Origin: Oscillospiraceae bacterium
Lineage (GTDB): Bacteria; Bacillota; Clostridia; Oscillospirales; Oscillospiraceae
Reading direction: 5' to 3'
DNA: 58,525 bases
Assembly: GCA_017506735.1 (NCBI GenBank)
Contig: JAFVMW010000051.1
Span: 1 to 58,525 of the forward strand
Part shown: positions 9,336 through 40,622 of the stretch, one piece after another
Layout: the number at the start of each line of letters is the position of its first letter
Numbering within the stretch: the first letter of the stretch is position 1
Program-made: the position numbers and the translations under genes
Notes under the pieces: generated by a model
Database searches by the model: none
What the model was told of the DNA's origin: nothing
What the model saw: the letters and a program-made list of their open reading frames with translations, nothing else

Positions 9336-9374
9336 CCGGGTCTGACCGTGCAAAGGGTCAGACCCGGTTTTTTA
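9336..9374. terminator. terminator between convergent YesL and lacI genes
   Basis: A 12-bp stem (9336-9347 with 9356-9367) is followed on the plus strand by a T-run that overlaps the last codons of the LacI gene. It terminates the plus-strand gene and may also serve the minus strand. Confidence 0.85.
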
Positions 9375-10448
9375 CTTTTTGACAGGGCCGGTGGAGCCCC
9401 GGGTGATCAGCCGGGGGGAGTACTCGATCTTTTTCACCAGCATATGCATGGATGCGTCCTCGGGCATGATCCGGGCGGGAGAGTCCGGGTTGATCAGCAT
9501 ATCCACCGCAGCGTGGCACAGAAGCCGCAGATGATGCTCAATGGTGGTCAGGCCGGGGCTGCAGATCCGGGAGAGAAAAATATTGTCGAAGCTGCATACG
9601 GAAACATCCTCAGGCACCCGAACCCCTGCTTCGGAAAGGACGGTCAGAATGCCCAGAGCGGTCATGTCGTTGACTGCGATCAGCGCAGTGGCCTGGTAGG
9701 AGCCGGACAGGAACTGCTTTGCCAGCATCCGGCCGATGGTATATTCATAAGAGCCGTTGCTCTGCCGCAGATCCTGCTCCTGAAGGTCGGAAATCAGAAG
9801 CTCCAGATTATCTTCGATGAGGTGGACGGCCATCTGCCGGCGGATGCCCTCCAGCCGCTGGGAACGGGCCATGGTGAGCCGGTTCAGGGGCGTGGAGAGA
9901 AAGGCGATGTGCCGGTGGCCCAGCTGATACAGGTGGTCGGTCAGCAGGGCGCCTGCGTCAATGTTGTTCAGACCCACGGAGCAGACCGCCAGATTCTCCT
10001 GCTTCTCACCGATGATCACCGTGGGGACGGTGGCGCTGATCTGCTCCACCAGCTCCGGGATACTGGGCAGGAAGGCGTAGACGATGCCTGCCACCCGCTC
10101 GTTGACATGATGCTCCAGATAGTACCGCTCCATCTCCACGCTTCGGAAGGTGTTGCAGAGCATGACGTAGCAGCCTCTGGTCTGGGCGTACTCCTCGATG
10201 TGCTGGACAAGCTCAGGGTAGTAGGGATTCTCCATGGTGGGGGTGAACACCAGAAGCATGGAGGGGATGACCTTTTCCCGTTTTTTCCGCTGGGGCAGGA
10301 CATAGCCCAGTTCCTTGGCCACGGCATGGACCCGATCTTTGGTTTCCTGACTGAAGGAGATCTTTTCGTTGCCGTTGAGGATCAGGGAAACGGCAGCCTG
10401 AGATACGCCGGCGGCGCGGGCAACGTCGCTGGAAGTCACTTTTTTCAT
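9372..10448 (-). CDS. LacI family transcriptional regulator
   Basis: A 358-residue regulator. Residues 1-50 form the LacI helix-turn-helix (VTSSDVARAAGVSQAAVSLILNG recognisable in two parts) with the hinge helix. Residues about 60-345 are a periplasmic-binding-protein-like sensor domain with the NPYYPELVQHIE pattern. It is transcribed divergently from the PfkB/HpcH/dehydrogenase operon across a 219-bp gap and most likely represses that operon, and perhaps the larger catabolic block. The effector is probably a sugar or sugar acid from the pathway. GGAGG precedes the start. Confidence 0.93.
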   Translation of the reverse strand: MKKVTSSDVARAAGVSQAAVSLILNGNEKISFSQETKDRVHAVAKELGYVLPQRKKREKVIPSMLLVFTPTMENPYYPELVQHIEEYAQTRGCYVMLCNTFRSVEMERYYLEHHVNERVAGIVYAFLPSIPELVEQISATVPTVIIGEKQENLAVCSVGLNNIDAGALLTDHLYQLGHRHIAFLSTPLNRLTMARSQRLEGIRRQMAVHLIEDNLELLISDLQEQDLRQSNGSYEYTIGRMLAKQFLSGSYQATALIAVNDMTALGILTVLSEAGVRVPEDVSVCSFDNIFLSRICSPGLTTIEHHLRLLCHAAVDMLINPDSPARIMPEDASMHMLVKKIEYSPRLITRGSTGPVKK

Positions 10449-10499
10449 GAACCGAAATCCTCCCTGGAATTGATTTTGGTGTAGCTAATATATATTTAT

Positions 10500-10529
10500 A
10501 TTATAATGCACGCAATGGGGATTTGTCAA
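10500..10529 (-). promoter_or_regulatory. promoter of the LacI regulator
   Basis: Minus-strand TTGACA (10529-10524) and TATAAT (10505-10500) with an 18-bp spacer, about 50 bases before the start codon. Confidence 0.8.
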
Positions 10530-10581
10530 ATAATACTAATATCTATATGCTTTTTTTTGCAGGTTTTCGAAGGGGAAAACC

Positions 10582-10610
10582 TTGACAGTGTGTTTTTTCT
10601 CCGATATACT
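10582..10610 (+). promoter_or_regulatory. promoter of the PfkB-HpcH-dehydrogenase operon
   Basis: TTGACA (10582-10587), 17-bp spacer, TATACT (10605-10610). A near-consensus promoter opposite the regulator gene suggests a unit that is strong when de-repressed. Confidence 0.88.
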
Positions 10611-10667
10611 AAGACCAGAAAGCAATGAAGAAACTGTGAAATATTAGTGATAAAGTGTGGTTATAAA

Positions 10668-11687: not shown

Positions 11688-11697
11688 TCCATCACCG

Positions 11698-11722
11698 GAA
11701 AGGGGCTCGCTGAGTCCCTTTC
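11698..11722 (+). other. intercistronic hairpin without U-tract
   Basis: A 7-bp stem (GAAAGGG with CCCTTTC) extended by an inner CTC/GAG pair lies between the kinase and aldolase genes. No T-run follows, so mRNA processing or stability is more likely than termination. Confidence 0.55.
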
Positions 11723-11750
11723 TGCTGTGAATCAAGAAAGGAAACTGATT

Positions 11751-12506
11751 ATGTCTAATCTGAAAGAACGTCTGAGAAACGGCGAACAGGTTCTGGGCAC
11801 CATGGTGACCACCTTCGCCTCCCCCGATATCGCCAAGATCATCCAGGCCTGCGGCTTCGATTTTATGATCGTGGACTGCGAGCATGGCTCCTTCACCACC
11901 CGTGAGGTCGCCAACATCATCGCCGTTGCCCGGGGCATCGGAATGCCCACGCTGGTCCGCATTCCCGAGATGCGCCGTGAGCACGCCCTGAAGTTCATGG
12001 AGATGGGTGCCAGCGGTCTGCTGCTGCCCAACACCGAGTCTGCCGAGCAGGCCAAGATGCTGGTGGACTGCACCAAGTACGCCCCTCTGGGCCACCGGGG
12101 TGTTTCCCTGTCCCGTCCCCACACCGATTTCGCCAAGGTCAGCGGCGCTACCTATATGCCCAAGGCCAATGACGAGACCATTCTGATGTGCCAGATCGAG
12201 TCCCGGAAGGGCGTTGAGAACGTTGAGGAGATCATCGCTGTGGAGGGCATCGACGTTGCCTTCATCGGCCCCAACGACATGACCCAGGACTATGGCATTC
12301 TGGGCCAGTTTGAGCATCCCGAGATCGTTGCCGCCTTCGAGCGGATTATTGCCGCCGCACAGGCCAACGGCAAGTGGGCCGGCGCGCACTTCGGCGGTGC
12401 CGCACCTCTGAAGCCCTGGCTGAAAAAGGGTATGCAGATCAATATGTGGAACAGCGACAACGGCCTGCTGGCTCTGGGCGCTGCCGCCATCACCGAGCTG
12501 CGCTGA
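11751..12506 (+). CDS. HpcH/HpaI family class II 2-keto acid aldolase
   Basis: A 251-residue TIM-barrel enzyme of the HpcH/HpaI family: catalytic His region DCEHGSF, substrate Arg in TLVRIPE, metal Glu in QIESRKGVENVEEI and metal Asp in GPNDM. The family cleaves 2-keto-3-deoxy acids to pyruvate and an aldehyde, for example 2-keto-3-deoxyglucarate to pyruvate plus tartronate semialdehyde. The dehydrogenase that follows 14 bases later would suit reduction of such a three-carbon product. AAAGGAAA lies upstream of the ATG at 11751; an in-frame start at 11727 is less likely. Confidence 0.92.
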   Translation: MSNLKERLRNGEQVLGTMVTTFASPDIAKIIQACGFDFMIVDCEHGSFTTREVANIIAVARGIGMPTLVRIPEMRREHALKFMEMGASGLLLPNTESAEQAKMLVDCTKYAPLGHRGVSLSRPHTDFAKVSGATYMPKANDETILMCQIESRKGVENVEEIIAVEGIDVAFIGPNDMTQDYGILGQFEHPEIVAAFERIIAAAQANGKWAGAHFGGAAPLKPWLKKGMQINMWNSDNGLLALGAAAITELR

Positions 12507-12520
12507 AAGGAGATCAAACC

Positions 12521-13477
12521 ATGAAAATCGTTGTTCTGGACGGATATACCGAAAATCCCGGCGATCTGAGCTGGGAGGAGCTGGGCAAGCTGGGTGAGCT
12601 GACCGTGTACGACCGGACTGCCGAGGATCAGATCCTCAGCCGGATCGGTGACGCTGAGATCGTCATCACCAACAAGACCCCTCTGACCCGTGCCACCATG
12701 GACGCCTGCCCCAATATGCGCTACATCGCCGTTCTGGCCACCGGCTACAACGTGGTTGACGTTGCCGCTGCAAAGGAGAAGGGCATCCCCGTTTCCAATG
12801 TTCCCACCTACGGCACCGCTTCCGTGGGTCAGTTCGCCATTGCCATGCTGCTGGAGATCTGCCACCATGTGGCCCACCACAGCCAGACCGTCTTCGAGGG
12901 TAAGTGGAATTCCTGCGCTGACTGGTGCTACTGGGATTACCCCCTGATCGAGCTGGACGGCAAGACCATGGGCATCATCGGCTTCGGCCGAATTGGCCAG
13001 ACTACCGGCAAGATCGCCAAGGCCATGGGCATGGAGATCCTGGCTTACGATGCCTTCCCCTCTGAGTCCGGCAAGGCCATTGCCGAGTATGTGGATCTGG
13101 ACACCCTGCTGGGCAAGTCCGATGTGGTTGCCCTCCACTGCCCCCTGTTCCCCGAGACCCAGGGCATCATCAACAAGGACACCATCGCCAAGATGAAGGA
13201 CGGCGTGATCCTGCTGAACAACTCCCGGGGCCCCCTGATCGTGGAGCAGGACGTGGCCGACGCTCTGAACAGCGGCAAGATCTACGCCGCAGGTCTGGAC
13301 GTTGTTTCCACCGAGCCCATCAAGAATGACAACCCCCTGCTGAAGGCAAAGAACTGCTTCATCACCCCTCACATCTCCTGGGCACCCAAGGAGAGCCGCC
13401 AGCGGATCATGGACTGCACCGTGTCCAACGTGGCAGCCTTCCAGTCCGGCGCACCTGTGAATGTGGTCAACAAGTAA
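12521..13477 (+). CDS. D-2-hydroxyacid dehydrogenase (hydroxypyruvate reductase-like)
   Basis: A 318-residue NAD(P)-dependent enzyme of the D-isomer 2-hydroxyacid dehydrogenase family. It carries the Rossmann motif GIIGFGRIGQ (about residues 150-159), an NNSRG segment with the catalytic Arg, a downstream Glu in DVVSTEPI and the catalytic His in TPHISW. Hydroxypyruvate reductase/glycerate dehydrogenase enzymes have this layout. With the aldolase upstream it would convert a keto acid to D-glycerate, which the glycerate kinase at 39381-40622 could use. AAAGGAG precedes the ATG. Confidence 0.92.
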   Translation: MKIVVLDGYTENPGDLSWEELGKLGELTVYDRTAEDQILSRIGDAEIVITNKTPLTRATMDACPNMRYIAVLATGYNVVDVAAAKEKGIPVSNVPTYGTASVGQFAIAMLLEICHHVAHHSQTVFEGKWNSCADWCYWDYPLIELDGKTMGIIGFGRIGQTTGKIAKAMGMEILAYDAFPSESGKAIAEYVDLDTLLGKSDVVALHCPLFPETQGIINKDTIAKMKDGVILLNNSRGPLIVEQDVADALNSGKIYAAGLDVVSTEPIKNDNPLLKAKNCFITPHISWAPKESRQRIMDCTVSNVAAFQSGAPVNVVNK

Positions 13478-13484
13478 ATCCGTA

Positions 13485-13522
13485 TCCCCCTGCCGGGTGC
13501 TTCCCCGGCAGGGGGATTTTTT
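13485..13522 (+). terminator. intrinsic terminator of the PfkB-HpcH-dehydrogenase operon
   Basis: A perfect 13-bp GC-rich stem (13485-13497 with 13504-13516) is followed by six T. Confidence 0.95.
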
Positions 13523-13526
13523 GCGG

Positions 13527-13560
13527 AAAAAGCCTCCCGCGGAGAGCCGCGGGAGGCTTT
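13527..13560 (-). terminator. intrinsic terminator of the six-gene minus-strand operon
   Basis: A perfect 14-bp stem (13529-13542 with 13547-13560, loop AGAG) is followed on the minus strand by a U-run from the A-run at 13527-13531. It is placed just after the stop at 13571. Confidence 0.95.
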
Positions 13561-13570
13561 GCGTATGGAA

Positions 13571-14698
13571 TTACAGCTCCACGATCCTGCGCTGGGTGTG
13601 GGACTCCAGGGCGGCGGTGAGCAGACGGTGGCTCAGCTTGGCCTCATCGGGACGGAAGCAGCCGAAGGCGCAGGGCAGACCTCTCAGCTCGCTGACGAAG
13701 GCGGCGAACATCTGCAGCAGGGAGTCGGAGAAGCCGAACTCGAAAATGGAACCGGTGATCACGGGGAACTGGGTTCTCTGGCCGATGACCAGACGGGCCC
13801 AGGCCTGCTCCCGGCCAACGGCCTGGGTGTAGCGGATGGCGTTGGGATCGTCGGAGGTGAATTTGGCGCTCATGTTCAGGCCGTAGATCTCGTATTCCAC
13901 GGTATTGGTGCAGCCGGGGGCCATGCGCTTCATTTCCAGCTGCATGGGGAACACATCGCCGGCGGCGTTGGTGGTGCCGCACATGACCATGGCGTTGTCC
14001 CAGGTCTCGCAGGGAACCATGTTGCCATCCTGGTCGGGGCGCTCTTTGGCGATGTTTGCCAGATAAGCACTGACGGTCTTGGGCACAAAGCCCAGACGGA
14101 AGGGCAGATGCTGGGTGTGGATGCCCAGGTCGCCCATGCAGCCGTACTCGCCGTTGGCGGCCTTCATGCGCTTCCAGTTGATGGGCTTTTTCAGATCCAT
14201 GTCGGAGGAGTGCTTGATGGTGAACTTGGCCTCGATGATCTGGCCGAACTTGCCCTCCTCATACCACTTGACCATCTGCTGGACGGCGGGGTAGAAGGGG
14301 AATTCGCTGGCGCAGCGGACGAAGACATTGGGATTCTCCGCCATGGCGGCTTCAATCTGCTCCATGGCAGCCAGATCCATGCCGAAGGGCTTCTCGCCGA
14401 TCAGATGCTTGCCGGAGCGGATTACGTCGCAGTAGACCTTGGCGTGAAGATGATGGGGAACGGCGCAGTAGACCGCCTCGATCTCGGGGTTGCGAAGCAT
14501 TTCCTGGTAGTCGTGGTAGAAATACTTGGTGTCGGGAACCTGACGGAACCAGTTCAGGTTGTCATCGTTCAGGTCGCAGGCAGCCAGGATCACGGGGCGG
14601 GGCAGGTCGCCCAGCAGGTGGAGCCAGCGCATGGAAACACTGGCAAACTCTCGGCCCATGAGGCCGCAGCCGATGACGGCGAAATTCACATTCTTCAT
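13571..14698 (-). CDS. Gfo/Idh/MocA family oxidoreductase (first copy)
   Basis: A 375-residue NAD(P)-dependent sugar or cyclitol dehydrogenase. It has an N-terminal Rossmann domain (VIGCGLMGREFA, residues about 7-18), the conserved GEKPFGMD Lys/Pro segment near residue 100 and a C-terminal alpha/beta domain with GDLGIHTQHLPF carrying the catalytic His. Family members oxidise a ring hydroxyl to a ketone or the reverse. It is the last gene of the minus operon, 12 bases after the class III aminotransferase, so oxidation of a hydroxyl (or reduction of a keto group) may be paired with transamination. Confidence 0.9.
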   Translation of the reverse strand: MKNVNFAVIGCGLMGREFASVSMRWLHLLGDLPRPVILAACDLNDDNLNWFRQVPDTKYFYHDYQEMLRNPEIEAVYCAVPHHLHAKVYCDVIRSGKHLIGEKPFGMDLAAMEQIEAAMAENPNVFVRCASEFPFYPAVQQMVKWYEEGKFGQIIEAKFTIKHSSDMDLKKPINWKRMKAANGEYGCMGDLGIHTQHLPFRLGFVPKTVSAYLANIAKERPDQDGNMVPCETWDNAMVMCGTTNAAGDVFPMQLEMKRMAPGCTNTVEYEIYGLNMSAKFTSDDPNAIRYTQAVGREQAWARLVIGQRTQFPVITGSIFEFGFSDSLLQMFAAFVSELRGLPCAFGCFRPDEAKLSHRLLTAALESHTQRRIVEL

Positions 14699-14710
14699 AG
14701 CGGACGCTCC

Positions 14711-16255
14711 TTACTTGGCGGCAGTCTTGTTGAGGGCCAGGGCGAACAGCTTCAGCAGCTTGTCAGCCATGGTGGGGGTGGTGATCAGGGGCAGCTTGGT
14801 CAGCGCCACGGGGGGACAGTTGGGCTTGTAGGTCTGGGCACTGACATCCACGCACAGTTCCTTGTTCATGATGCCAGTGAACTTGACCGCATCCTCCACG
14901 GTGGCGAAGCAGATGGCGGTCATGTGGGCGTCGCCCTCCACGCCGATGCAGATCTCGGGATAATTCTTTGCCAGGGCAACGGTCTGATCGTGGTAGTACT
15001 TGCCGGATTCGGAGATGAAGGCTTCGTTGGCATTCAGGAACTCCATGGTGATCAGGTATGCCAGGCTTGCCAGCTCCTCCTGGCCGTTGGTGACCAGGGC
15101 GCCGAACTGGCTCAGGCTGTCGAAGGCGCCGCTGACCAGGATCTTGCTGGCAGGATACTCGCCGCCGGGGAAGCCCTTGCCCACGGAAACGAAATCGGGG
15201 CGGATGCCGTACTTCTTGAACAGGAAGCAGCCGTCATACCAGGCGCAGCTCTGGATCTCGTCGCAGAGGACGGGGGTATCGGTTTCCCGGCAGATGCGGT
15301 AGACCTCCTGCAGGTACTCCTCGGACAGGCGGATGCCGCCGTAGTTCATCAGGATGATCTCATGGCAGAAGCCTGCGGTCTTGTACTTGCCGGTATTGTA
15401 CTGCTGGGCAATTCTGCGGAAGCCTTCGGCATCGTTGATGGGCACGGAGACCACCTTGTAGATCTCACTGCCCTCGCAGGCGGCGTAGAAGCCGGGCCAC
15501 AGGCCACGGAGGGTCTGGGCCAGAACGGTGGTGCCGTGGTAGTTGCCGGTGATGCCGCCGGCGTTGTCGGCCATGATCAGGAACACGGGGGTGCGGCCCT
15601 CGTAGGGAGCCTTTGCGCCGTCCAGGCTGTAGAACCGGGACAGCATCATCTTCAGAGCGGCCTCGCAGGCCAGGGAGCCGGTTTCCAGATTGATGACGGA
15701 GGTCAGCACGCCGGGCTCCTTCTTTGCGATGATCTCATCCAGCCGGGGATCGGCGGGATCCATGGAGTTGACGCAGGCGATGAGCTTGCGCTCCAGGGTA
15801 CGGGTGATGAAACCGCGGGTGTTGTTGTGGGTGGCGTTCAGGATGCCCAGGGCCCGGGCGTTGTCGATGAGTCGGTAGCCGGGGAACTGGTGGCCCAGGG
15901 GGATCTGATAATGCTCGCTCTTGCCGGCGAAGTAGAGCTTGCCGCCCTCGCCAAGGCGGAACACGCCCTGGCCGCCCAGGGGAGCCATGTCGCTGTGCTG
16001 GGCTGCGCCGTAAGCGCCGGTGGGTGCGCCGGTCTCGGTGTTTTCAAAGGCAGGGATCAGGGACTGGCCCACCAGATCCATCAGCTCTTCCTGCCGCTGG
16101 GCAAAGGACTGGGGATAGAACTCCACCTTTTCGCTGGCGATGGCATAGAGCTCGTCGTAGGATCTGCCGCTGAGCAGGCTCTTGGCCCGGCACACGGAGG
16201 CAATGTAGCTTTCGCCCAGAAGGTCGATGAGGGAACGGGAAATGTTCTGAATCAT
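14711..16255 (-). CDS. class III PLP-dependent aminotransferase family protein
   Basis: A 514-residue PLP enzyme. The large domain contains NLETGSLACEAALKM (the usual cofactor phosphate site), VLCDEIQSCAWYDGCFLF with the PLP-ring Asp, and SVGKGFPGGEYPAS with the Schiff-base Lys K360. Compared with ornithine or GABA aminotransferases (about 400-450 residues) it has a long N-terminal region of about 90 residues. Class III enzymes move amino groups from omega-amino acids, amino sugars or amino cyclitols. Its operon with a sugar isomerase, kinase and aldolase suggests a carbohydrate amine rather than an amino acid substrate. That is inference. Confidence 0.85.
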   Translation of the reverse strand: MIQNISRSLIDLLGESYIASVCRAKSLLSGRSYDELYAIASEKVEFYPQSFAQRQEELMDLVGQSLIPAFENTETGAPTGAYGAAQHSDMAPLGGQGVFRLGEGGKLYFAGKSEHYQIPLGHQFPGYRLIDNARALGILNATHNNTRGFITRTLERKLIACVNSMDPADPRLDEIIAKKEPGVLTSVINLETGSLACEAALKMMLSRFYSLDGAKAPYEGRTPVFLIMADNAGGITGNYHGTTVLAQTLRGLWPGFYAACEGSEIYKVVSVPINDAEGFRRIAQQYNTGKYKTAGFCHEIILMNYGGIRLSEEYLQEVYRICRETDTPVLCDEIQSCAWYDGCFLFKKYGIRPDFVSVGKGFPGGEYPASKILVSGAFDSLSQFGALVTNGQEELASLAYLITMEFLNANEAFISESGKYYHDQTVALAKNYPEICIGVEGDAHMTAICFATVEDAVKFTGIMNKELCVDVSAQTYKPNCPPVALTKLPLITTPTMADKLLKLFALALNKTAAK

Positions 16256-16272: not shown

Positions 16273-17670
16273 TCAGACGGATACAAACTCAATGCCGATG
16301 AGACGGCACAGAAGACGGACACGGTCGGAGCAGTCACCCAGCACCACAGTCTCGTGGTGGGTGCCACCCTGCTCCAGCCAGGACTTGACGCACTGGCGGA
16401 CGCCGGAATCGGGACGGAAGAACATATAGGGCATATCACACTTGCGCAGATCGCACTTGTCCAGAATCTGGCCTTTGGAGAACACCAGACGGAAATGGTC
16501 GCCGCCGGTGTGTACCAGGCTCATGACGCAGGCAGGGCCGGGCTCGGGGGCGAAAATGGGGGTGGGAGGATTGGACAGGCCGCCCTCGTTGAACACCCGG
16601 TCCATCAGGAATGGCTTCCGGTCCTTGCGGGCGGTGGCGTAGTTGCCCTCGCCGGCGTGGCACAGAAGGATGGCCTCCCGCTTCAGGTCCATCATGTACA
16701 TTTCGCTGAAGTTTGCCTCACCCCAGAGCTGCACCATGGCAGCCATCAGCATGGCGGTGGTGGCGTCGCCCTCGGCGGCGTAGCCGTAGCCGTCGGCCAT
16801 CAGACTGGAAGCGGCCAGCAGCGGCAGCTGGGTGTAGCGGCCGTCGGCGCCGAACTCATCAAAGTGGATGGTGTAGCCGGAGTAGCCGTTTGCTTCCAGA
16901 TAGCGCCTGATGCCGATGTACATCCGGACGGCCTCGGCGTGGCGTTCATCGGGCATCTGGGGATCCACATCAAAGATCTCCCGTTCCGCAGCTACACGCT
17001 GTGCCACCTCTTCGGGGGTGACGGTGTCGCAGAATTTGGTGACGGTGCCGATGGAGTCGTAAACGAACTCGGGGCCGATCTTCTTGTAGACCGCCATGTC
17101 GTCGGTGATCACGTCGCCCATGCCGGGGAGCTTTCCGATGATGCCGATCTTCATCTTTTGCAGGGCCCGGACGGTCTTGGCGGCGGCGCCGAAGTCGGAG
17201 ACGAACTTGCTCAGCTCGCCGCCGAAGCGGCTGCCGGCAAAGAAGGCGCAGGGGATGCCGGCCCGGAGCAGGGCGTTGGCGTTGTCCTGGGAGCCGTGGA
17301 TGCCCTGATTGACGGTGAGCTCCAGCTCCTCAAAGTCGTCGCCAACAGTCTCGTCAGGCTGGACCAGAGCCAGGGCCAGGGGCAGATGGTTGCGCTGCAT
17401 GGCCCGGATCAGATACTGGCCGGGGGAGTAGCTGCACAGCAGAATCAGAATGCCGTCCAGATCGGCGGCGTTGTAGGCGGCGGTGAGTTTCTCAATGTCC
17501 GACCGGTTCAGGGCGATCTTGGGGAAGGTGAAGTCAGCGGTGTCCTGCAGGGAGGCCAGAACCTCCTGGACATAAGCAGTCTGCTGGGCGGTGATGCCGG
17601 GGAACAGGGGCTCGTAGGCTTCCAGCATCAGTGCCAGAACGCCCAGCCGGGGCTTGCGGTTCATTTCCAT
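16273..17670 (-). CDS. L-arabinose/L-fucose isomerase-family protein
   Basis: A 465-residue sugar isomerase of the AraA/FucI fold. Metal-site patterns are present: Glu in HFDEFGADGR, Glu in AAEGDATTAML, His in LCHAGEGNYA and a C-terminal His in GGTHHETV. These enzymes interconvert aldoses and ketoses with Mn2+. Residues around the pocket differ enough from classical AraA that the sugar cannot be named. It lies between a class III aminotransferase and an FGGY kinase, with spacings of 17 bases on both sides, and would feed the kinase a ketose. Confidence 0.85.
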   Translation of the reverse strand: MEMNRKPRLGVLALMLEAYEPLFPGITAQQTAYVQEVLASLQDTADFTFPKIALNRSDIEKLTAAYNAADLDGILILLCSYSPGQYLIRAMQRNHLPLALALVQPDETVGDDFEELELTVNQGIHGSQDNANALLRAGIPCAFFAGSRFGGELSKFVSDFGAAAKTVRALQKMKIGIIGKLPGMGDVITDDMAVYKKIGPEFVYDSIGTVTKFCDTVTPEEVAQRVAAEREIFDVDPQMPDERHAEAVRMYIGIRRYLEANGYSGYTIHFDEFGADGRYTQLPLLAASSLMADGYGYAAEGDATTAMLMAAMVQLWGEANFSEMYMMDLKREAILLCHAGEGNYATARKDRKPFLMDRVFNEGGLSNPPTPIFAPEPGPACVMSLVHTGGDHFRLVFSKGQILDKCDLRKCDMPYMFFRPDSGVRQCVKSWLEQGGTHHETVVLGDCSDRVRLLCRLIGIEFVSV

Positions 17671-21194: not shown

Positions 21195-21393
21195 AAGAAT
21201 TGAACCTCCAATATTTATGCCCCGGAAGGGGGGAAATCCAGAAAAAACCAGTCATTGTAACGTTATTTGCGCCGCAGAAGTGGGGTGGGCGGAAAACAGG
21301 GGACTAATAAAAAAGAATATAAGTAATAAAAAACAGAAGTTTATTGTCTAAATTAACTAAAAAACCAGGTTCCAATTTTGCAGGGTCGAATGC

Positions 21394-21422
21394 TTGACAC
21401 CCCTTAGAATTACTGGTATAGT
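21394..21422 (+). promoter_or_regulatory. promoter of the ABC importer operon
   Basis: TTGACA (21394-21399), 17-bp spacer, TATAGT (21417-21422). It lies in the 361-base divergent gap 21195-21555. The left part of this gap is AT-rich and must hold the promoter of the minus operon, which I cannot place with confidence. Confidence 0.85.
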
Positions 21423-32107: not shown

Positions 32108-32126
32108 TCAGAAAGAGAGATCTGCC

Positions 32127-34160
32127 ATGAGAAACGATCCCTTTCAGTATATTTTCCGGTTCTGCTGTGATCCGGATTTCAACGACCGGCAGGAAATCGA
32201 CGCCCTGATGGACTATGTGGATGACGCACTGGTGGACGATGTTGCCATTTTCGCCAATGTGGAGGAAATCAACACCGGCCACATGAGCTTTCAGGAGCAG
32301 GATCGCTACATTGCTCTGATGAAGGAGGTCCGTGACCTGCTGAAGGAAAAGGGCGTGACCATTTCCGTGAACCAGTGGCACAGCGTCATGCACGCGGATC
32401 TGGGCAAATCCTTCCGGCCCGACCAGCCCTTCCGTCCCATGGTGGACATCGAGGGCAACGCCGCATCCCTGAGCGTCTGCCCCCTGTGCGAACACTGGCA
32501 GGCCTACATCGGCAGGCTCTATGCCCGGTATGCGGAGCTGGAGCCCTCCATCCTCTGGGTGGAGGACGATTTCCGGCTCCACAACCACGATCCTCTGGTC
32601 TGGGGCGGCTGCTTCTGCCCCGAACATATGAAGCGATACAGCGCCCTGGCCGGCAAGGAGCTGACCCGGGAGGAATTCCTGGCAGGTGTCCTGCAGCCCG
32701 GCGAGCCCCATCCCTACCGGAAGATCTGGCTGGATGTGGCAAGAGAAACCATGCTCAGCGCCGCCCGTGCCATCAGCACCGCCGTCCGGGAAGTGACCAA
32801 AGAATCCCGGGTGGGTCTGATGAGCTCCGTGCCCTTCGTCCACGCTGCCGAAGGCCGTGACTGGCACGCCATTCTGAACACTCTGGCCGGCGGCCAGACT
32901 CCCGTGAACCGGATCCATCTGCCTGGCTACCAGGAGAGTGCCCCCAGCCACTATCTGCGCAATCTGAATATGGTCTCCATGCTCAACCGGGCCATGATCC
33001 CGGAACACACCCAGGTGTATCCCGAGCTGGAGAATTTCCCCTACTCCCTCTTCTCCAAATCCCGTCGGTTCACCCGGTTCCAGCTGGTCAGCGGTCTGCC
33101 CCTGAATCTGGCAGGCATCACCATTGACCTGTACGACCTGAACGGCAACGGCATCATCTGGGAGGAGGGCTATCAGGATATGCTCCGGGAGGTCAAGCCC
33201 TATCTGAATACCCTGACCGCCTCCGGCGTGTTCCGGGGCAAGCGGGAGGGCGTGAAGGTGCTTTACTCCCAGCGCTCTTCCTACACCCTGCACACCGCCG
33301 CCGGAAAGCAGATGGAGGAGCTGTATCCCCATGACTGCTTCTGGGCAGGTCTGCTTCCTGCCATGGGTGTGCCCTATGCCTATACCGATTCTGCTGACCA
33401 CAAGGGTGAGATTCTGGCCGCTTCCGGTCAGGTGCTGCGGAATTTCTCCGCCGAAGAACTGACGGCCCTGTTTGAGAACAACTTCGTCCTCCTCAACGGT
33501 GACGCGGCATATACCCTCTTTGACATGGGTCTGGGCCATCTGGCCGGTATTGCCGATGCCAAATGGGTGAAGCAGAATGACGGCACCTACGCCTTCGAGC
33601 AGGTGACCAACGGAAAGATCTACCGGGGCCGGGAAAAGGCCCGGGCCTCCGCCATCATCTCCGCCTCCGATGCACTGAACGTTACCTACCGGGAAGATGC
33701 CCGGGTGGAGGAATACACCGCTCTGTTTGACTCCTTCCGCAGACCCAGACTCTCCTGCGAGACGGTGGTCAACGGCCGTGTGATGATCTTCCCCTTCGGC
33801 GGATTTGACTACCCCCTGTCCATCCCCCCCATGTTCTGGAACGGCCTGCGGCAGGAGCTGCTGCAGCAGATCCTGTGTAAGGCCGGTGCATCCTTCCCCA
33901 TGGTGAAGAATATGCCGTATCTGGAGCCCCACTACCTTATCAAGGACGGGGAGGAATATCTGTATCTGGTCAACGGCAGCACCGACGAGGCTGTGAACCC
34001 GGAGCTGCTGCACACCCGGCTGGATGCCCGGACTGAAATTCAGCTGTCTACCGAACAGGGCAATGCGTCTGTGATCCAGACCCCTGCCACCGAAAACGGC
34101 AATGTGCTGCAGATGAAGATCCCCAGCATGGAAGCCCTGCTGATGAAACTGAAGAAATAA
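32127..34160 (+). CDS. GH42-like clan A glycoside hydrolase-related protein
   Basis: A 677-residue protein with no signal peptide. Residues about 1-360 look like a TIM barrel with ILWVEDDFRLHNHDP and GCFCPEHMKRY, the latter resembling the Cys motif after strand 4 in GH42 beta-galactosidases. Residues about 370-560 resemble the amidotransferase-like middle domain of that family (VKVLYSQRSS). A short beta domain (LEPHYLIKDGEEYLYLVNGS) ends the protein. The usual NE pair of clan A enzymes is not obvious; E/D residues in WVEDD may serve. A hydrolase role is likely, but the substrate is unknown. It is one of four uninterrupted degradative genes. Confidence 0.6.
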   Translation: MRNDPFQYIFRFCCDPDFNDRQEIDALMDYVDDALVDDVAIFANVEEINTGHMSFQEQDRYIALMKEVRDLLKEKGVTISVNQWHSVMHADLGKSFRPDQPFRPMVDIEGNAASLSVCPLCEHWQAYIGRLYARYAELEPSILWVEDDFRLHNHDPLVWGGCFCPEHMKRYSALAGKELTREEFLAGVLQPGEPHPYRKIWLDVARETMLSAARAISTAVREVTKESRVGLMSSVPFVHAAEGRDWHAILNTLAGGQTPVNRIHLPGYQESAPSHYLRNLNMVSMLNRAMIPEHTQVYPELENFPYSLFSKSRRFTRFQLVSGLPLNLAGITIDLYDLNGNGIIWEEGYQDMLREVKPYLNTLTASGVFRGKREGVKVLYSQRSSYTLHTAAGKQMEELYPHDCFWAGLLPAMGVPYAYTDSADHKGEILAASGQVLRNFSAEELTALFENNFVLLNGDAAYTLFDMGLGHLAGIADAKWVKQNDGTYAFEQVTNGKIYRGREKARASAIISASDALNVTYREDARVEEYTALFDSFRRPRLSCETVVNGRVMIFPFGGFDYPLSIPPMFWNGLRQELLQQILCKAGASFPMVKNMPYLEPHYLIKDGEEYLYLVNGSTDEAVNPELLHTRLDARTEIQLSTEQGNASVIQTPATENGNVLQMKIPSMEALLMKLKK

Positions 34161-34172: not shown

Positions 34173-35246
34173 ATGCAAGCCAAGATTCTGGAAAGCAAAT
34201 GGCTCCTCGAGTGGTTCGATGAGCGGATGTGCTATCATATGCCCAGCCTGACCAAGGCCGCCAACGGCAACCTGCTGGCAGTCTGGAACGGCGGTTTCCT
34301 CCAGTGGAACGGCGACCCCATGGGCCGGGATGCCCAGGACTGGGTGTCTGTGCTGGAGCCCGGCGCGGAGCAGTGGTCCAACCCCGAGGCTGTGGGCTGC
34401 GACATCCGCTATGCCTGCCATGACCCCATCTTTGTGAAGAACAAGGCAGGCGAGATCATTCTGATCTATGCCAAGTTCCTGGACACCGTTTGCAACTACT
34501 CCACCTGGTGCAACGGCGCCGATGAGCTGTGGACCCGCAAGACCACCGACGGCGGCCGCACCTGGCTGCCTGCCGCTCCCACCAGGCTGAAGACTGCCGA
34601 TGGCTTCGCCCCCATCAAGACCGGCCACCCCTCCAACGACGGCGTGGTGCTGGAAGACGGCACCATCGTCTTTGCCGCCACCTCCACCGAGAAGGCTGAC
34701 TACTATTTCGGTGCCATCCGGATCTACTTCTCCCACGATGACGGCGAGACCTGGGAGGAGGGCCCCCTGCTGATCGCTCCCGACGGCAACAAGGTGCGTG
34801 AGCCTGCACTGGTGCTTCGTCCCGACGGCACTCTGCGGATCTTCAGCCGCACCTGCCACAAGGATAGCAACTGGGGCGCCGGCAAGATCCCTGCGCTGGT
34901 ATCCTACACCGCTGAGAGCAAGGACGGCGGCAAGACCTGGACCGAGCCCGTTCCCACCACCATCTCCAACAACGATTCCAAGATCGACGTGATCAACTGG
35001 GACGACCAGACCCTGATCATGGCCTACAACGATACCCCCTACTGCGACTGGCATGAGCGCAGCCCCCTGTCGCTGGCCTGGTCCAGGGATGAGGGCAAGA
35101 CCTGGCACAAGCTGATCGACCTGACCACTGAGCAGGGCAATATGTGCCAGCCTGCCATGTGCAAGGGTGAGGACGGCAAGCTGAATATCGTCTTTATGCA
35201 CCGCCACAATGCCATCCGGCATCTGGTGGTGGAGATCACCGAATAA
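34173..35246 (+). CDS. cytoplasmic sialidase-family (BNR_2) protein lacking the RIP arginine
   Basis: A 357-residue propeller with four Asp boxes: TTDGGRTW, SHDDGETW, SKDGGKTW and SRDEGKTW. That is the complete length for a bare sialidase-fold domain. At the position of the FRIP/YRIP motif it reads CYHMPSL, so the first arginine of the sialidase triad is replaced. It is therefore probably not an exo-sialidase but a related hydrolase or lyase on another acidic or neutral sugar. There is no signal peptide. The start lies 12 bases after the GH42-like gene, with AAAGGAG upstream. Confidence 0.78.
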   Translation: MQAKILESKWLLEWFDERMCYHMPSLTKAANGNLLAVWNGGFLQWNGDPMGRDAQDWVSVLEPGAEQWSNPEAVGCDIRYACHDPIFVKNKAGEIILIYAKFLDTVCNYSTWCNGADELWTRKTTDGGRTWLPAAPTRLKTADGFAPIKTGHPSNDGVVLEDGTIVFAATSTEKADYYFGAIRIYFSHDDGETWEEGPLLIAPDGNKVREPALVLRPDGTLRIFSRTCHKDSNWGAGKIPALVSYTAESKDGGKTWTEPVPTTISNNDSKIDVINWDDQTLIMAYNDTPYCDWHERSPLSLAWSRDEGKTWHKLIDLTTEQGNMCQPAMCKGEDGKLNIVFMHRHNAIRHLVVEITE

Positions 35247-35289: not shown

Positions 35290-35310
35290 TGTGGAAGAAA
35301 GAGAACTGAT

Positions 35311-36105
35311 ATGCTGACAGAAACAACTGTGCTGGAAAGTCAGGAATATCTGGCGGAAGAAGAGGCACTGCTGCAGTGCATTCTGGATATGGGCGAGCTG
35401 CTGCTGACCAGCGGCGCAGAGGTCATGCGTGTGGAGGACACCATCTCCCGGCTGTGCCGGGTCTATGGCTTCGCCCGGTGGGATGTGTTCACCATCACCT
35501 CCAGCATCGTGCTGACCGTTCGGACCCCCGGCGGACGGACGGTGACCCAGACCCGGCGGATCCTGTCCCGGGATACGGACCTGGGCCGTGTGGAGAAGGT
35601 CAATGCCCTGTCCCGGCGGCTGTGCCAGTGTCCTGCGGGGCTGGAAGAATTCCGGCAGGCGGTGGACGAGATCCGTGCGGCCGGCACCTACCCTGTGTGG
35701 GTTCAGCGGCTGATGTATATGATGATCTCCGGGGCCTTTTCCGTATTTTTCGGAGGGACGCCGGCGGACGGCGTGGCTTCCTGTATTTCCGGTCTTGTGC
35801 TGTTTGAGGCCCTGCGGTGGATCACACCCCTGCGGCTCAACGGCACCATTCAGTGTATGGCGGCCTCCTTTCTGACGGGCTTCGCCGCGGTGCTCCTCTG
35901 CCAGATCGGCCTGGGCCAGAACCCGGACAAGATCATCATCGGCAACATCATGCTTCTGATCCCGGGCATCGCCTTTACCTCCGCCCTCCGGGATATCATC
36001 AACGGCGACACCCTGTCCGGCCTGCTGGGCCTGTGCGAGGCGATCCTCCGGGCACTGGCGGTGGCCATTGGCTTTGCGGCAATGCTGCTGTGGACGGGAG
36101 GCTGA
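35311..36105 (+). CDS. threonine/serine exporter family protein, ThrE N-terminal half
   Basis: A 264-residue membrane protein matching the ThrE domain (PF06738). The soluble N-terminus carries LLTSGAEVMRVEDTISRL, and about five helices follow from residue 130, with IPGIAFTSALRDIINGD between helices. In split systems this half pairs with a small ThrE_2 protein, encoded here four bases later. It would export small hydroxy amino acids or related compounds. Its position inside a glycan-degradation operon is unusual. The start at 35311 follows AGAAAGAGA. Confidence 0.9.
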   Translation: MLTETTVLESQEYLAEEEALLQCILDMGELLLTSGAEVMRVEDTISRLCRVYGFARWDVFTITSSIVLTVRTPGGRTVTQTRRILSRDTDLGRVEKVNALSRRLCQCPAGLEEFRQAVDEIRAAGTYPVWVQRLMYMMISGAFSVFFGGTPADGVASCISGLVLFEALRWITPLRLNGTIQCMAASFLTGFAAVLLCQIGLGQNPDKIIIGNIMLLIPGIAFTSALRDIINGDTLSGLLGLCEAILRALAVAIGFAAMLLWTGG

Positions 36106-36109
36106 GAAA

Positions 36110-36577
36110 ATGGAAAAATACCTGATGCAAATGGTCATGGGCTGCATCGGCGCTCTGGGCTTTGCGGTATTGTTCAACGTCCGGGGCAGAAAACTCATCG
36201 CCATTACAGCGGCCAGTGCCCTGTCCTGGTGGGGCTATGCCGGCTGTATGCTCTCGGGCGGCGGTGTGTTCTGGGGCCTGTTCTGGGGTACTGCCGTGGC
36301 GGCGGTACTCAGCGAGGTGCTGGCCCGTCTGCTGAAGGCTCCGGTGCTGATGCTGCTGGTGCCCATTCTGATCCCTTTGATCCCCGGCGGCGATCTGTAC
36401 CACATGATGGCCTGCCTGGTCCGGGGGATGGACGATTCCTTTGTGCTTTACGCCCGGCTGGTGCTGACCGAGGCTGGCTCTATTGCCCTGGGCATCATCA
36501 GCGCGTCCACGGTCATGCGCATTTACTTTGGCCTGGGCCTGCGAATCAAAGAAAAATGGGAAAGGAGATCCCAATGA
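36110..36577 (+). CDS. ThrE_2 family exporter subunit (C-terminal half)
   Basis: A 155-residue membrane protein with about five helices and the VPILIPLIPGGDLYHMM segment typical of PF12821 (ThrE_2/DUF3815). It completes the split exporter with the upstream gene, whose stop it follows by four bases. Its own stop overlaps the next start in an ATGA junction, coupling it to the GH123-like gene. Confidence 0.88.
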   Translation: MEKYLMQMVMGCIGALGFAVLFNVRGRKLIAITAASALSWWGYAGCMLSGGGVFWGLFWGTAVAAVLSEVLARLLKAPVLMLLVPILIPLIPGGDLYHMMACLVRGMDDSFVLYARLVLTEAGSIALGIISASTVMRIYFGLGLRIKEKWERRSQ

Positions 36578-38286: not shown

Positions 38287-38292
38287 CAGGCT

Positions 38293-39333
38293 ATGGGCTA
38301 CGAATTTGATCAGAAGTATTTTCTGGACTGTCTCCGGGAGCTGCTGGATACCCCCAGTCCCGTGGGCTATGACCGGGCCATGAACCCGGTGCTGGAGCGG
38401 TATGCCGCACAGTTCGGCCAGAGTGTGTGGTATGACAACAAGGGCACTGCCTACATCACTCTGGAGGGCCATGACAATTCCAAAACCGTCATGGTCAGCA
38501 CCCATCTGGACACGCTGGGCCTGGTGGTGCGCCGCATCGAGCCCGATGGCACCCTCCGGGTGCGGAACATGGGCGCGCTGAATTTCCACAGCGCCGAGGG
38601 CGAAACGGTGACCGTATTTACCCGGGACGGCAGAAGCTGGACGGGCCTGCTGACGGTCAGTGCCCACTCCATCCATGTGTTCGACGACTGCCGGGATATG
38701 CCCCGGGACGAGCATACCATGATCGTTCTGCTGGATGAAAAGGTGTCCTGCAAGGAGGATGTCTCCCGGCTTGGCATCCGAAACGGCGATCTGATCGCCA
38801 TTGAGCCCCGGTTTGAGGTGACGCCCTCCGGCTTTGTCAAGAGCCGCTTCCTGGATGACAAGGCGGCGGTGGCCTGCGTCTTCACCATGCTGAAATACAT
38901 GACAGAACGGGGACTGAAGCCCAGGTACCGGACGGTCATCGGCTTTACCTACATGGAAGAGGTCATGCTGGGCGGCAACTATATGCCCCCGGAGGTCTGC
39001 GAAGCGGTGGCACTGGACATCGGTTGCATTGGCCCGGATCAGGATGGCACGGAATACGGTGTCAGCATCTGCGCCTATGACAACAACGGCCCCTACAACT
39101 GGGAACTGACCACCCGTCTGGTGAATCTGGCGGAGAAGCTGGGCTGCGACTATGCGGTGGATACCTTCCGCCACTACGGCAGCGACTGCTCCGCCGCCAT
39201 CAAGGGCGGCTGCAATGTGAAGGTGGGCGTCTTTGGTATGGCGGTCACCTGCAGCCACGGCAGAGAGCGCACCCATCTGGACGGACTGAGAAATACCTAT
39301 GAGCTCCTGACGGGCTACGTTCTGGGAGCATGA
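38293..39333 (+). CDS. M42 family metallo-aminopeptidase
   Basis: A 346-residue cytosolic peptidase with the di-metal site of clan MH: His in STHLDTLG, bridging Asp in SRFLDDKAAV, catalytic and metal Glu in TYMEEVMLGG, Asp in ALDIGCIGPD and His in SHGRERTHLDG. M42 enzymes (PepA/FrvX/YsdC type) form large tetrahedral assemblies that trim peptides, and some are linked to sugar operons. It follows the GH123-like gene by six bases. A glycopeptide substrate for the operon would be consistent with this gene, but this is speculative. Confidence 0.9.
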   Translation: MGYEFDQKYFLDCLRELLDTPSPVGYDRAMNPVLERYAAQFGQSVWYDNKGTAYITLEGHDNSKTVMVSTHLDTLGLVVRRIEPDGTLRVRNMGALNFHSAEGETVTVFTRDGRSWTGLLTVSAHSIHVFDDCRDMPRDEHTMIVLLDEKVSCKEDVSRLGIRNGDLIAIEPRFEVTPSGFVKSRFLDDKAAVACVFTMLKYMTERGLKPRYRTVIGFTYMEEVMLGGNYMPPEVCEAVALDIGCIGPDQDGTEYGVSICAYDNNGPYNWELTTRLVNLAEKLGCDYAVDTFRHYGSDCSAAIKGGCNVKVGVFGMAVTCSHGRERTHLDGLRNTYELLTGYVLGA

Positions 39334-39338
39334 CAAAC

Positions 39339-39365
39339 CCCCCTGTGCAGTTTTTGCACAGGGGG
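39339..39365. terminator. hairpin between convergent M42 and glycerate kinase genes
   Basis: A perfect 11-bp stem (39339-39349 with 39355-39365) with T-rich loop lies in the 47-base convergent gap. Neither strand has a clear U-tract after the stem, so it is a probable but imperfect terminator. Confidence 0.6.
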
Positions 39366-39380
39366 TAAATTGCGCTTTGC

Positions 39381-40622
39381 TCAGGTTTCCGGATTCACAA
39401 GGCCGATGGCCACGTCGTTGACATTGGTGCCGGTGGGGCCGGTGATCACCAGATTGCCGATGGCCTTCAGGGCATGGTAGGAATCGTTGTTGGCAAGCAT
39501 GGCCCGGTAGTCAACGCCGGCCCGGGCAAGGTCTGCCAGGGTGTCGCTGTCCACATAGCCGCCGGCGGCGTCTGTGGGGCCGTCAGTGCCGTCAGAGCCC
39601 ACGCTGATCAGGGCGGTACCGGAGATGCCTGCAAGCCGTTCCGCAGCGGACAGGGCCAGCTCCTGGTTTCTGCCGCCCAGTCCGGTGCCCTTCAGGTGGA
39701 CAACGGTCTCGCCTCCTGCCAGAAAGGCCAGCTTCCGCCGTTCCGCGGCGGCCTCGGCCACTTTGCCGGCAAGCATTCTGCCTGCATCGGAGGCCTCGCA
39801 GTCCAGCCGGTCAGTGAGGAACACGGGCTCATAGCCCAGTGCCCGGGCCTCCCGTTCCGCCGCCAAGCACAGCTCCCGGACGGAGCCGATGACCTGAGTG
39901 TGGACGTTGGGAACCTCCTTGGGCGTTTCCACAGCCAGAAGTTCCTTTACCTGGGGATCCCGGTCAACGCCGTATTTTGCCGCAATGGCCTGGGCCTGGT
40001 CTGCGGTGACAGGATCCGCCGCGGCCGGGCCGGAGGCAATCATATCCACCGGGTCGCCCAGAATGTCGGACAGGATGATGGATTCCACCCGGGCAGGCTG
40101 GCACCACAGGGCGAACCGTCCGCCCTTCACCGCAGACAGCCGCTTGCGCAGGGAATTGATCTGAACAATGTCTGCGCCGCCGGCGAGCATGGTTCGGGTG
40201 ATGGCTTCCAGACGCTCCGGTGCCACCAGGGGTTTTTCAAACAGGGCACTGCCGCCGCCGGACAGGAGGAACAGTACGGTATCCTCGGGATCCAGATGCT
40301 CGGTCATATCCAGCACCGCCTGGGTGCCCCGGTAGCTGTTTTCATCGGGGACAGGATGACCGGCTTCGAAACATTCGATGGAGGGCAGGGGGCCCATCAC
40401 ATGGTCATATTTTGTGACCACGATGCCCCGGGTCAGAGAGACGGGCAGGGCGTTCACAGCCGCGGCGGCCATCTGCCAGGCGGCCTTGCCTGCGGCAACC
40501 AGATAGACCCGGCCGGTGAGGGTGACGTTGCCCAGGGCCCGGCGGACGGCTTCATCGGGACAGACAGCCCGTATGGCACCTCTGGCGATCTGCTCTGCAT
40601 GATCGCGAAGGGTTTGATTCAT
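39381..40622 (-). CDS. glycerate 2-kinase, MOFRL family
   Basis: A 413-residue kinase of the type 2 glycerate kinase (GckA/TtuD) family. It has the N-terminal YLVAAGKAAWQMA loop, LLSGGGSALFEKP, the ILSDILGDPVDMIASGP block, and a C-terminal MOFRL domain with LAFLAGGETVVHLKGTGLGGRNQELAL and VGSDGTDGPTDAAGG. It makes 2-phosphoglycerate from D-glycerate for lower glycolysis. It would use the product of the D-2-hydroxyacid dehydrogenase at 12521. It has its own promoter (40665-40693) and GGAGG ribosome site. Confidence 0.93.
   Translation of the reverse strand: MNQTLRDHAEQIARGAIRAVCPDEAVRRALGNVTLTGRVYLVAAGKAAWQMAAAAVNALPVSLTRGIVVTKYDHVMGPLPSIECFEAGHPVPDENSYRGTQAVLDMTEHLDPEDTVLFLLSGGGSALFEKPLVAPERLEAITRTMLAGGADIVQINSLRKRLSAVKGGRFALWCQPARVESIILSDILGDPVDMIASGPAAADPVTADQAQAIAAKYGVDRDPQVKELLAVETPKEVPNVHTQVIGSVRELCLAAEREARALGYEPVFLTDRLDCEASDAGRMLAGKVAEAAAERRKLAFLAGGETVVHLKGTGLGGRNQELALSAAERLAGISGTALISVGSDGTDGPTDAAGGYVDSDTLADLARAGVDYRAMLANNDSYHALKAIGNLVITGPTGTNVNDVAIGLVNPET

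Follow-up and report, generated by a model that had tools for sequence, protein, structure and literature searches.

Organization of the locus

The window analysed here, a stretch of 58,525 nucleotides of contig JAFVMW010000051.1, originates from an Oscillospiraceae bacterium whose 2.31 Mb genome is 81% complete. It carries a large cluster of sugar-catabolic genes, comprising a minus-strand operon built around a class III aminotransferase (AT3) and plus-strand genes encoding an importer and glycan-active proteins, and comparison with relatives strongly supports the view that these two operons form one co-inherited system. The window proteins were scanned against Pfam and NCBIfam. Every enzyme class that a preliminary description of this DNA had placed at 9372-40622 is indeed encoded there, and the NCBIfam scan added a gene missing from its list, encoding a 2-hydroxyacid dehydrogenase (approximately 12518-13477). 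The conserved core, as delimited by gene-neighbourhood comparison, covers approximately 9372-35246 and contains the following features, including a removable set of genes referred to below as module A:

9372..10448, minus strand: LacI-family regulator (PF00356, PF13377), adjoining PfkB in many relatives
10582..10610, plus strand: predicted sigma-70-like promoter before PfkB, TTGACA-17-TATACT (script match)
10641..10653: predicted operator-like dyad at the PfkB start, two mismatches to TTATTASTAATAA
10647..11687, plus strand: PfkB-family sugar kinase (PF00294), no NCBIfam model above cut-off
11727..12506, plus strand: HpcH/HpaI-family aldolase (NCBIfam), catalytic residues kept relative to GarL and RhmA
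12518..13477, plus strand: D-2-hydroxyacid dehydrogenase of the hydroxypyruvate-reductase type (NCBIfam), start reset to M49 of the open reading frame (ORF)
13571..14698, minus strand: GfoA, Gfo/Idh dehydrogenase, partner of AT3 (PF01408)
14711..16255, minus strand: AT3, class III aminotransferase (PF00202), pyridoxal phosphate (PLP) lysine K360
16273..17670, minus strand: ketol isomerase of the L-arabinose isomerase family (PF11762, PF24856)
17688..19172, minus strand: FGGY-family ketose kinase (PF00370, PF02782)
19179..20018, minus strand: AldII, class II aldolase without the DPR arginine (PF01116, E 7.4e-87)
20052..21194, minus strand: GfoB, second Gfo/Idh dehydrogenase (PF22725, PF01408)
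21317..21329: predicted operator-like dyad between the divergent genes GfoB and PermA, two mismatches
21394..21422, plus strand: predicted sigma-70-like promoter before the importer, TTGACA-17-TATAGT (script match)
21556..22530, plus strand: PermA, CUT1-type permease A (PF00528)
22549..23475, plus strand: CUT1-type permease B (PF00528, slightly below cut-off)
23548..25287, plus strand: solute-binding lipoprotein, by position and a lipobox-like N-terminus seen by eye (orthologue PF01547)
25512..26774, plus strand: DegT-family aminotransferase, module A (PF01041)
26926..27828, plus strand: NanL, sialate-lyase-like pyruvate aldolase of the DHDPS/NAL family, module A (PF00701)
27846..28760, plus strand: aldo/keto reductase, partner of DegT, module A (PF00248)
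28809..30623, plus strand: BNR1, BNR-repeat protein, module A (PF13088, weak, under cut-off)
30695..32107, plus strand: SASA-family carbohydrate esterase (PF03629), GQSN motif kept
32085..34160, plus strand: ORF of U691, conserved protein without Pfam or NCBIfam match, start probably at 32127
34173..35246, plus strand: BNR2, sialidase-superfamily propeller (PF13088)

The intergenic gaps are operon-like, i.e. 6-33 bases in the minus operon and 12-224 bases across the importer-to-BNR2 stretch. Among the matches listed, no cluster protein reached the cut-off of an NCBIfam equivalog belonging to a named sugar pathway, and no ABC transporter ATPase was found among the cluster proteins scanned. The solute-binding lipoprotein itself has no Pfam match, and its orthologue matches SBP_bac_1.

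Co-inheritance of the two operons

A collection scan with a four-sequence AT3 alignment gave 228 confirmed relatives, and the best 80 loci of these 228 were kept: 23 window-type (L041-L061, L073, L118) and 57 general. Their genes were called by a caller trained on homologues. The window-type loci belong to Gemmiger, Ruthenibacterium, Anaeromassilibacillus, Limiplasma, Christensenella and other Clostridia, and in a quick, midpoint-rooted tree the window-type AT3 sequences make up one side of a branch (24 rows, SH-aLRT 100).

Plus-strand importer, module A or glycan genes lie beside the minus operon in 16 of the 23 window-type loci (in L042 as one permease only), two further loci (L058 and L059) have BNR1, and the remaining loci include some cut by contig ends. 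The divergent GfoB/PermA layout is kept in 13 of the 16 relative loci tested. Whole-genome searches, covering 22 of the 23 window-type genomes (all except L045), detected BNR2 at 67-73% identity in 20 of them, the two without it being G075 and G081; BNR2 and AT3 share a contig in 14 of these 20. In the 25 general-type loci tested, out of 57, there was no BNR2 match (E up to 1e-20), except for one of 30% identity. In the window's order (394 genomes), BNR2 was found at E up to 1e-60 in the window's own genome only; 16 other genomes have AT3 relatives of 52-56% identity.

The preliminary description had proposed one catabolic locus for a decorated, possibly aminated oligosaccharide, to be abandoned if the plus- and minus-strand operons turned out to occur independently and to respond to unrelated substrates. 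A single catabolic locus with a decorated, probably aminated oligosaccharide as its substrate is supported. Independence fails inside the window-type clade because the operons are co-inherited and share an operator-like dyad (see below); outside it, minus-type operons do stand alone.

AT3 relatives were also seen in Ignavibacteriota, Lentisphaerota, Chlorobiota and Bacteroidota (L095, L070, L103, L085). Within five genes of AT3, no kinase or isomerase was recognised in L095 and L070.

A shared putative control site

The dyad TTATTASTAATAA was derived from the control regions of relatives, and two mismatches were allowed in the searches. It is found in 11 of 13 PermA/GfoB regions and in 7 of 13 LacI/PfkB regions of the relatives, counts that are not independent of the motif, since it was taken from those very regions. 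In three of the six LacI/PfkB regions without it, the intergenic gap is merely 51-72 bases.

The window was not used in building the motif and therefore provides an independent test. Its 58,525 bases hold two sites versus 0.06 expected, and none of 100 shuffles reached two. Both sites fall in control regions, one at 21317 between GfoB and PermA and the other at 10641, over the PfkB start. We infer that the LacI-family protein may bind both. Canonical LacI-type CG-centred palindromes were looked for as well, and neither of the window's two control regions contains one.

The AT3 core module

AT3 often travels with GfoA, the isomerase and the FGGY kinase. Within five called genes of AT3, the 80 loci contain FGGY in 55 cases, GfoA in 50, an AraA-family isomerase in 45 and AldII in 15; for the 57 general loci the respective numbers are 38, 28, 22 and 5, with HpcH or PfkB in a single locus. 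Some of the kinases and isomerases of the general loci are just 24-31% identical to those of the window.

The enzymes of this module retain the hallmarks of their families. AT3 matches PF00202, its PLP lysine (K360) is invariant in all four aligned rows, and none of the 25 NCBIfam models listed for it reaches cut-off. GfoA keeps E102, K103, D190 and H194 in at least 95% of 39 rows, and thus has the lysine of the EKP motif and the D-x3-H motif (K103, D190, H194) by which we recognise Gfo/Idh enzymes, motifs described in an earlier study (PMC7535918). In GfoB, E97, K98, H184, D185, D187 and Y188 are kept in at least 95% of 14 rows. Assignment of GfoA or GfoB to the NanY type was rejected, as identity to NanY is merely 20-23% over partial length. 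The isomerase conserves E300, E323, H338 and H438/H439 in at least 97% of 41 rows, and we take these E, E, H and H positions to be the metal ligands of the L-arabinose isomerase fold; against the NCBIfam equivalog for L-arabinose isomerase it scores 133 bits (cut-off 622).

AldII has the FBA/TBA (fructose/tagatose-bisphosphate aldolase) fold, as judged from PF01116 (E 7.4e-87) and its HFDHG, GTAHG and LHGGSG blocks, and among the NCBIfam models listed passes the cut-off for the broad cbbA subfamily only. It retains the zinc and dihydroxyacetone phosphate (DHAP) blocks of class II aldolases. The DPR segment is deleted in the window protein and in 14 of the 15 relatives aligned, the fifteenth (L115) having an aberrant end, and its arginine is present in KbaY, GatY and FbaA aligned with AldII. 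This arginine (R331 of FbaA) presumably binds the C6 phosphate, and its deletion suggests that the substrate of AldII should be a ketose 1-phosphate without a C6 phosphate. Such a substrate fits phosphorylation at C1 by the FGGY kinase, followed by cleavage to DHAP and a free aldehyde.

In Robinsoniella peoriensis, an alanine dehydrogenase gene stands between GfoA and AldII in an AT3-GfoA-AldII run. This single case, in keeping with a catabolic role of the transaminase, suggests that AT3 may pass amino groups to pyruvate, with alanine being recycled. In L078, L081, L082, L084, L091, L092, L094, L096, L101, L102, L107 and L109, all from Clostridia, AT3 directly follows ruvA/ruvB-like genes (RuvB was confirmed for L082, the others were assigned by protein clustering); mostly FGGY lies behind AT3, a two-gene form of the module. 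A NodB-like protein (read by eye) is encoded between AT3 and GfoA in L087.

Module A and its alternatives

The comparison does not support a single linear route; it resolves a core and a removable module of DegT, NanL, aldo/keto reductase and BNR1. A DegT orthologue (61-84% identity) is present in 16 of the 22 genomes, other DegT-family members reaching at most 46%, except for a second copy of 59% in G075. NanL of the window clade accompanies it in 15 of the 16 genomes (the exception is G080), and the best NanL-like match in the six DegT-free genomes is 30%. As these six keep core genes in the absence of both, the core does not seem to need DegT and NanL, unless the stretch was lost from unfinished assemblies. 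One DegT-free carrier of the core is Anaeromassilibacillus sp. An200 (L046), probably a cultured isolate to judge by its record title. Of the 14 module A pieces, 13 (all but L073) have the reductase alongside DegT and NanL, and 10 have BNR1, which adjoins GfoA in L057, L058, L059, L060 and L061. DegT-bearing rows are scattered in the AT3 clade, with seven label changes, at least five of them forced by supported branches.

In the G281 locus and around the second copy in G075, a DegT relative (56-58% identity) adjoins a reductase (50-52%) with no NanL or AT3 nearby. Because of this adjacency in two NanL-free loci we treat DegT and the reductase as one chemical unit, and their status as a separable pair is strongly supported. 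DegT was assigned to the aminotransferases by PF01041 and the lysine in HSAKTMT (read by eye); we assume that the SxK-motif lysine marks an aminotransferase of this family and not a dehydratase. The nearest NCBIfam models are WecE and PseC, both below cut-off. DegT also matches PDB entry 5k8b, an 8-amino-3,8-dideoxy-octulosonate transaminase, less strongly than it matches some twenty-five others.

NanL forms its own clade in the lyase tree, and its best PDB matches are N-acetylneuraminate lyases (NAL). It keeps T48, Y137, K165, D191 and E192, the D191-E192 pair being shared with E. coli NAL and not with DapA or YagE. The full NAL active site (S47, T48, Y137, K165, D191, E192, S208), with the roles that we presume for these positions, is not present. 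In G066 and G077, which both have module A, another lyase is encoded whose sites are more canonical, and there NanL is probably not used for N-acetylneuraminate (Neu5Ac). A canonical NAL was also sought in the window's genome; the second match was DapA-like, and the second-lyase argument does not apply to this genome.

Some loci have other genes in or beside this position. A PHP/CehA-like hydrolase and an organophosphate-type major facilitator superfamily (MFS) transporter occur in 4 of the 19 pieces scanned; such a pair, observed in L149, L150, L151 and L156, replaces module A in the DegT-free G062, G063 and G064 and joins it in G071, which suggests a variant for a phosphate-bearing substrate. 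In L157 (3614-4516) and L159 (3629-4531), a protein of the aminoglycoside 3-N-acetyltransferase family (PF02522 for L157, by eye for L159) follows DegT, NanL and the reductase, hinting at an amino-sugar substrate.

Glycan-active proteins

All 12 extended pieces long enough to include the glycan genes encode U691 and BNR2; the SASA esterase was called in 11 of them. U691 is 54-62% identical in 10 relatives; neither Pfam nor NCBIfam gave a match for it, PDB searches by sequence and by profile gave none that was significant, and it is perhaps a glycosidase. Of the 25 PDB sequences matched by the BNR2 profile (best E 1.1e-6), 23 carry the label sialidase or neuraminidase. BNR1 is probably a cytoplasmic glycosidase. 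No signal peptide was seen by eye at the start of BNR1, SASA, U691 or BNR2, which suggests that they act in the cytoplasm on imported oligosaccharide.

Boundaries and flanking regions

The preliminary description had drawn the gene set as contiguous up to 40622. To the right of BNR2 lie:

35311..36577, plus strand: ThrE/ThrE_2 amino-acid exporter pair (PF06738, PF12821)
approximately 36574-38286: GH123 (Pfam)
38293-39333: M42 (Pfam)
39381-40622, minus strand: glycerate kinase (DUF4147/MOFRL, Pfam)

All the classes are present as described, but the exporter pair splits BNR2 from GH123. The right edge had been set too far out, as none of GH123, M42 and glycerate kinase turned up in the relatives' clusters, apart from a 42% GH123 relative in one. 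Of 13 relative pieces, three contain the ThrE half of the exporter pair. Close to the cluster of one relative lie both the 42% GH123 relative and a Gfo/Idh protein whose C-terminal domain is of the GH109 type (L162:3578-4828); the two perhaps point to N-acetylgalactosamine linkages.

A tRNA-Arg gene (40896-40972) lies immediately right of the cluster, and the proteins that were scanned included no recognisable integrase. Recent horizontal transfer was considered on the grounds of base composition and rejected, as the GC content of the cluster (0.602) does not contrast with that of the flanks (0.578 and 0.59), although just one of the 394 genomes of the order has BNR2. The flanks encode a large BspA-type leucine-rich-repeat protein with S-layer domains (44688-48314) and a GDSL esterase with S-layer domains (5108-6790).

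Proposed function

Based on these observations, we consider it fairly probable that the cluster forms a single catabolic regulon under LacI control, its substrate being an oligosaccharide that bears O-acetyl and amino groups and would lose its amines before a fucose-like ending. The importer would bring the oligosaccharide into the cell, SASA would remove its acetyl groups, and its linkages would be opened in the cytoplasm by U691 and BNR2, joined in module A by BNR1. From a 2-keto-3-deoxy acid sugar, NanL of module A would release pyruvate, leaving an amino-aldose. DegT may then convert one C-NH2 to C=O, to be reduced to C-OH by the aldo/keto reductase, and AT3 with GfoA may perform the same transaminase-reductase conversion on a second amine. 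The resulting aldose would be isomerised and phosphorylated by FGGY at C1, and cleavage of the C1-phosphate by AldII would yield DHAP along with an aldehyde that bears no phosphate, the ending known from fucose catabolism. The amino groups would leave as an amino acid, perhaps alanine and perhaps exported by ThrE. In this scheme the core would handle one amine, module A would add the lyase and a second amine-removing pair, and PfkB, HpcH and the hydroxyacid dehydrogenase might form a second ending, for a 2-keto acid from the same oligosaccharide.

The scheme appears chemically coherent, judged by the logic of the enzyme families. The closest known system is fucose/rhamnose catabolism, in which an isomerase, an FGGY kinase and an aldolase yield DHAP and lactaldehyde. 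The order of the chemistry, the sugar isomerase, the FGGY kinase and an aldolase without a C6-phosphate site are alike; unlike it, the window adds two aminotransferases and two Gfo/Idh enzymes, and its aldolase is, as we understand these families, of the FBA/KbaY family (PF01116) and not of the FucA family.

Several observations weigh against the proposed regulon. The substrate positions of both aminotransferases are guessed; class III aminotransferases usually act on terminal or alpha amines, and known DegT-family enzymes mostly on nucleotide sugars. No N-deacetylase, which acetylated amines would need, was assigned in the window, and the amidohydrolase of general AT3 loci has no recognised counterpart there. 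AldII is scarce near AT3 in the general loci (just 5 of 57), and alanine dehydrogenase was found in only one of the 80 loci. Beside the core genes, DegT and NanL are missing in 6 of 22 genomes, although gaps in the unfinished assemblies may account for some of these absences. NanL differs from NAL at S47 (which is G), Y110 and S208 (which is T). BNR2 has Y21 H22 M23 P24, invariant in 9 of 9 rows, where its best PDB match has YRIP; the arginine of the RIP/FRIP motif, which we take to be the first sialidase arginine, is replaced by histidine, so that BNR2 lacks this mark of a GH33 sialidase. Finally, the preliminary description had spoken of a complete route from import to glycolysis, which goes too far: no input could be assigned to PfkB, HpcH and the 2-hydroxyacid dehydrogenase, and the glycerate kinase that would finish this second ending is not conserved beside the cluster.

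A more specific version of the regulon is tentative and, in our estimation, rather doubtful. Module A and the core might together catabolise bacterial diamino nonulosonic acids of the pseudaminic/legionaminic type, derived from the flagella or surface glycans of other bacteria. NanL would then release pyruvate and a 2,4-diamino-2,4,6-trideoxyhexose, the two transaminase-reductase pairs would remove both amines, and the 6-deoxyhexose would be degraded in the manner of fucose; without module A, the core would serve for mono-amino 6-deoxyhexoses. Such acids would jointly explain the lyase, the two amines, the 6-deoxy ending and the likeness of DegT to PseC. Against this stand BNR2 without the sialidase arginine and the six genomes that keep the core without NanL. 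According to a 2026 study, glycosylation of flagella with pseudaminic acid is widespread in Clostridium (PMC13317340), so sugars of this type may be available.

Alternative explanations

Of the rival explanations an oxidative route survives best, and we still regard it as unlikely. GfoA would oxidise C1 of a hexosamine, giving a lactone and then a hexosaminate, AT3 would form the 2-ketoaldonate, PfkB would phosphorylate C6 and HpcH would release hydroxypyruvate and glyceraldehyde 3-phosphate, to be finished by the hydroxyacid dehydrogenase and glycerate kinase; the isomerase-FGGY-aldolase branch would serve another sugar. This would make better use of PfkB, HpcH and the dehydrogenase, which are contiguous in the window and recur in window-type relatives. 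HpcH keeps the catalytic H50, R75, E153 and D179 in alignment with GarL and RhmA, and the amidohydrolase of general AT3 loci has a weak fuconolactonase match. However, AT3 of the general loci keeps other company, FGGY in 38 of 57 and the isomerase in 22, with HpcH or PfkB in one only, and the window proteins that were scanned include no recognised lactonase. The cluster shares the HpcH fold with the GarL/RhmA pathways; unlike those, it has no recognised dehydratase, and HpcH is joined with PfkB and the hydroxyacid dehydrogenase.

An octulosonate (3-deoxy-D-manno-octulosonate, Kdo, or 8-amino-Kdo) or a rhamnogalacturonan II-type substrate is improbable. A pentose released by the lyase would be isomerised, phosphorylated and cut to DHAP and glycolaldehyde, and an isomerase-FGGY-aldolase set without C6-phosphate binding does suit a pentose as well as a 6-deoxyhexose. 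The DegT match to 5k8b would agree with this, but it is one of many and weaker than some twenty-five others, and the second aminotransferase pair in lyase-free genomes is left unexplained.

That the cluster is an ordinary one for host sialic acid (Neu5Ac) or mucin, with extra genes, is likewise improbable. As in nan clusters, there are a NAL-family lyase with Y137, K165, D191 and E192, a SASA esterase and BNR-fold proteins, and ABC uptake resembles that reported for Ruminococcus gnavus (PMC7535918). On the other hand, the scanned cluster proteins include no NanE or NanK, the window having DegT and the reductase instead; NanL is altered at S47, Y110 and S208 and forms a separate clade; BNR2 lacks the RIP arginine; GfoA and GfoB bear little resemblance to NanY; and G066 and G077 (unlike the window's genome, to which this argument does not apply) hold a second, more canonical lyase.

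There is very little to be said for biosynthesis of an amino sugar. DegT and Gfo/Idh proteins are the usual enzymes there, and DegT is nearest to WecE and PseC, a likeness to pseudaminic/legionaminic biosynthesis (PseC, LegC), in which the legionaminic precursor is a 2,4-diacetamido-2,4,6-trideoxy sugar (PMC13317340). Unlike that pathway, the proposed one would work catabolically, in the reverse direction and on free sugars. Against biosynthesis stand the LacI regulator and the importer, the proteins resembling hydrolases, the three aldolases and the two conserved kinases, and the scanned cluster proteins include neither a nucleotidyltransferase nor a glycosyltransferase. The cluster is of the LacI-controlled, ABC-fed sugar-catabolic kind. 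That two unrelated operons are neighbours by chance can practically be dismissed inside this clade, since the absence of plus-strand glycan genes from general AT3 loci, which would favour it, is outweighed by the 20/22 co-inheritance, the conserved divergent layout and the shared dyad.

Implications

The recognised enzyme families of the cluster are all known; their joint use was not met in the open-access literature searched. None of the titles listed there dealt with catabolism of pseudaminic acid, legionaminic acid or 6-deoxyhexosamines, subscription journals being mostly outside the scope of that literature, and a 2023 survey of sialic acid catabolism never mentions pseudaminic or legionaminic acid (PMC10570557). 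AT3, U691 and BNR2, which have no assigned function in the libraries searched, constitute testable enzymes.

Known amino-sugar catabolism removes the amine mainly via deaminase-isomerases such as NagB. If the proposed regulon is real, its conserved transaminase-plus-dehydrogenase route would be a second chemistry of amine removal, and the AT3 module in its general form is common among Clostridia and also occurs in Lentisphaerota, Spirochaetota and other phyla. If the diamino nonulosonic acids were also to prove the substrate, the cluster would show bacteria feeding on the surface sugars of other bacteria.

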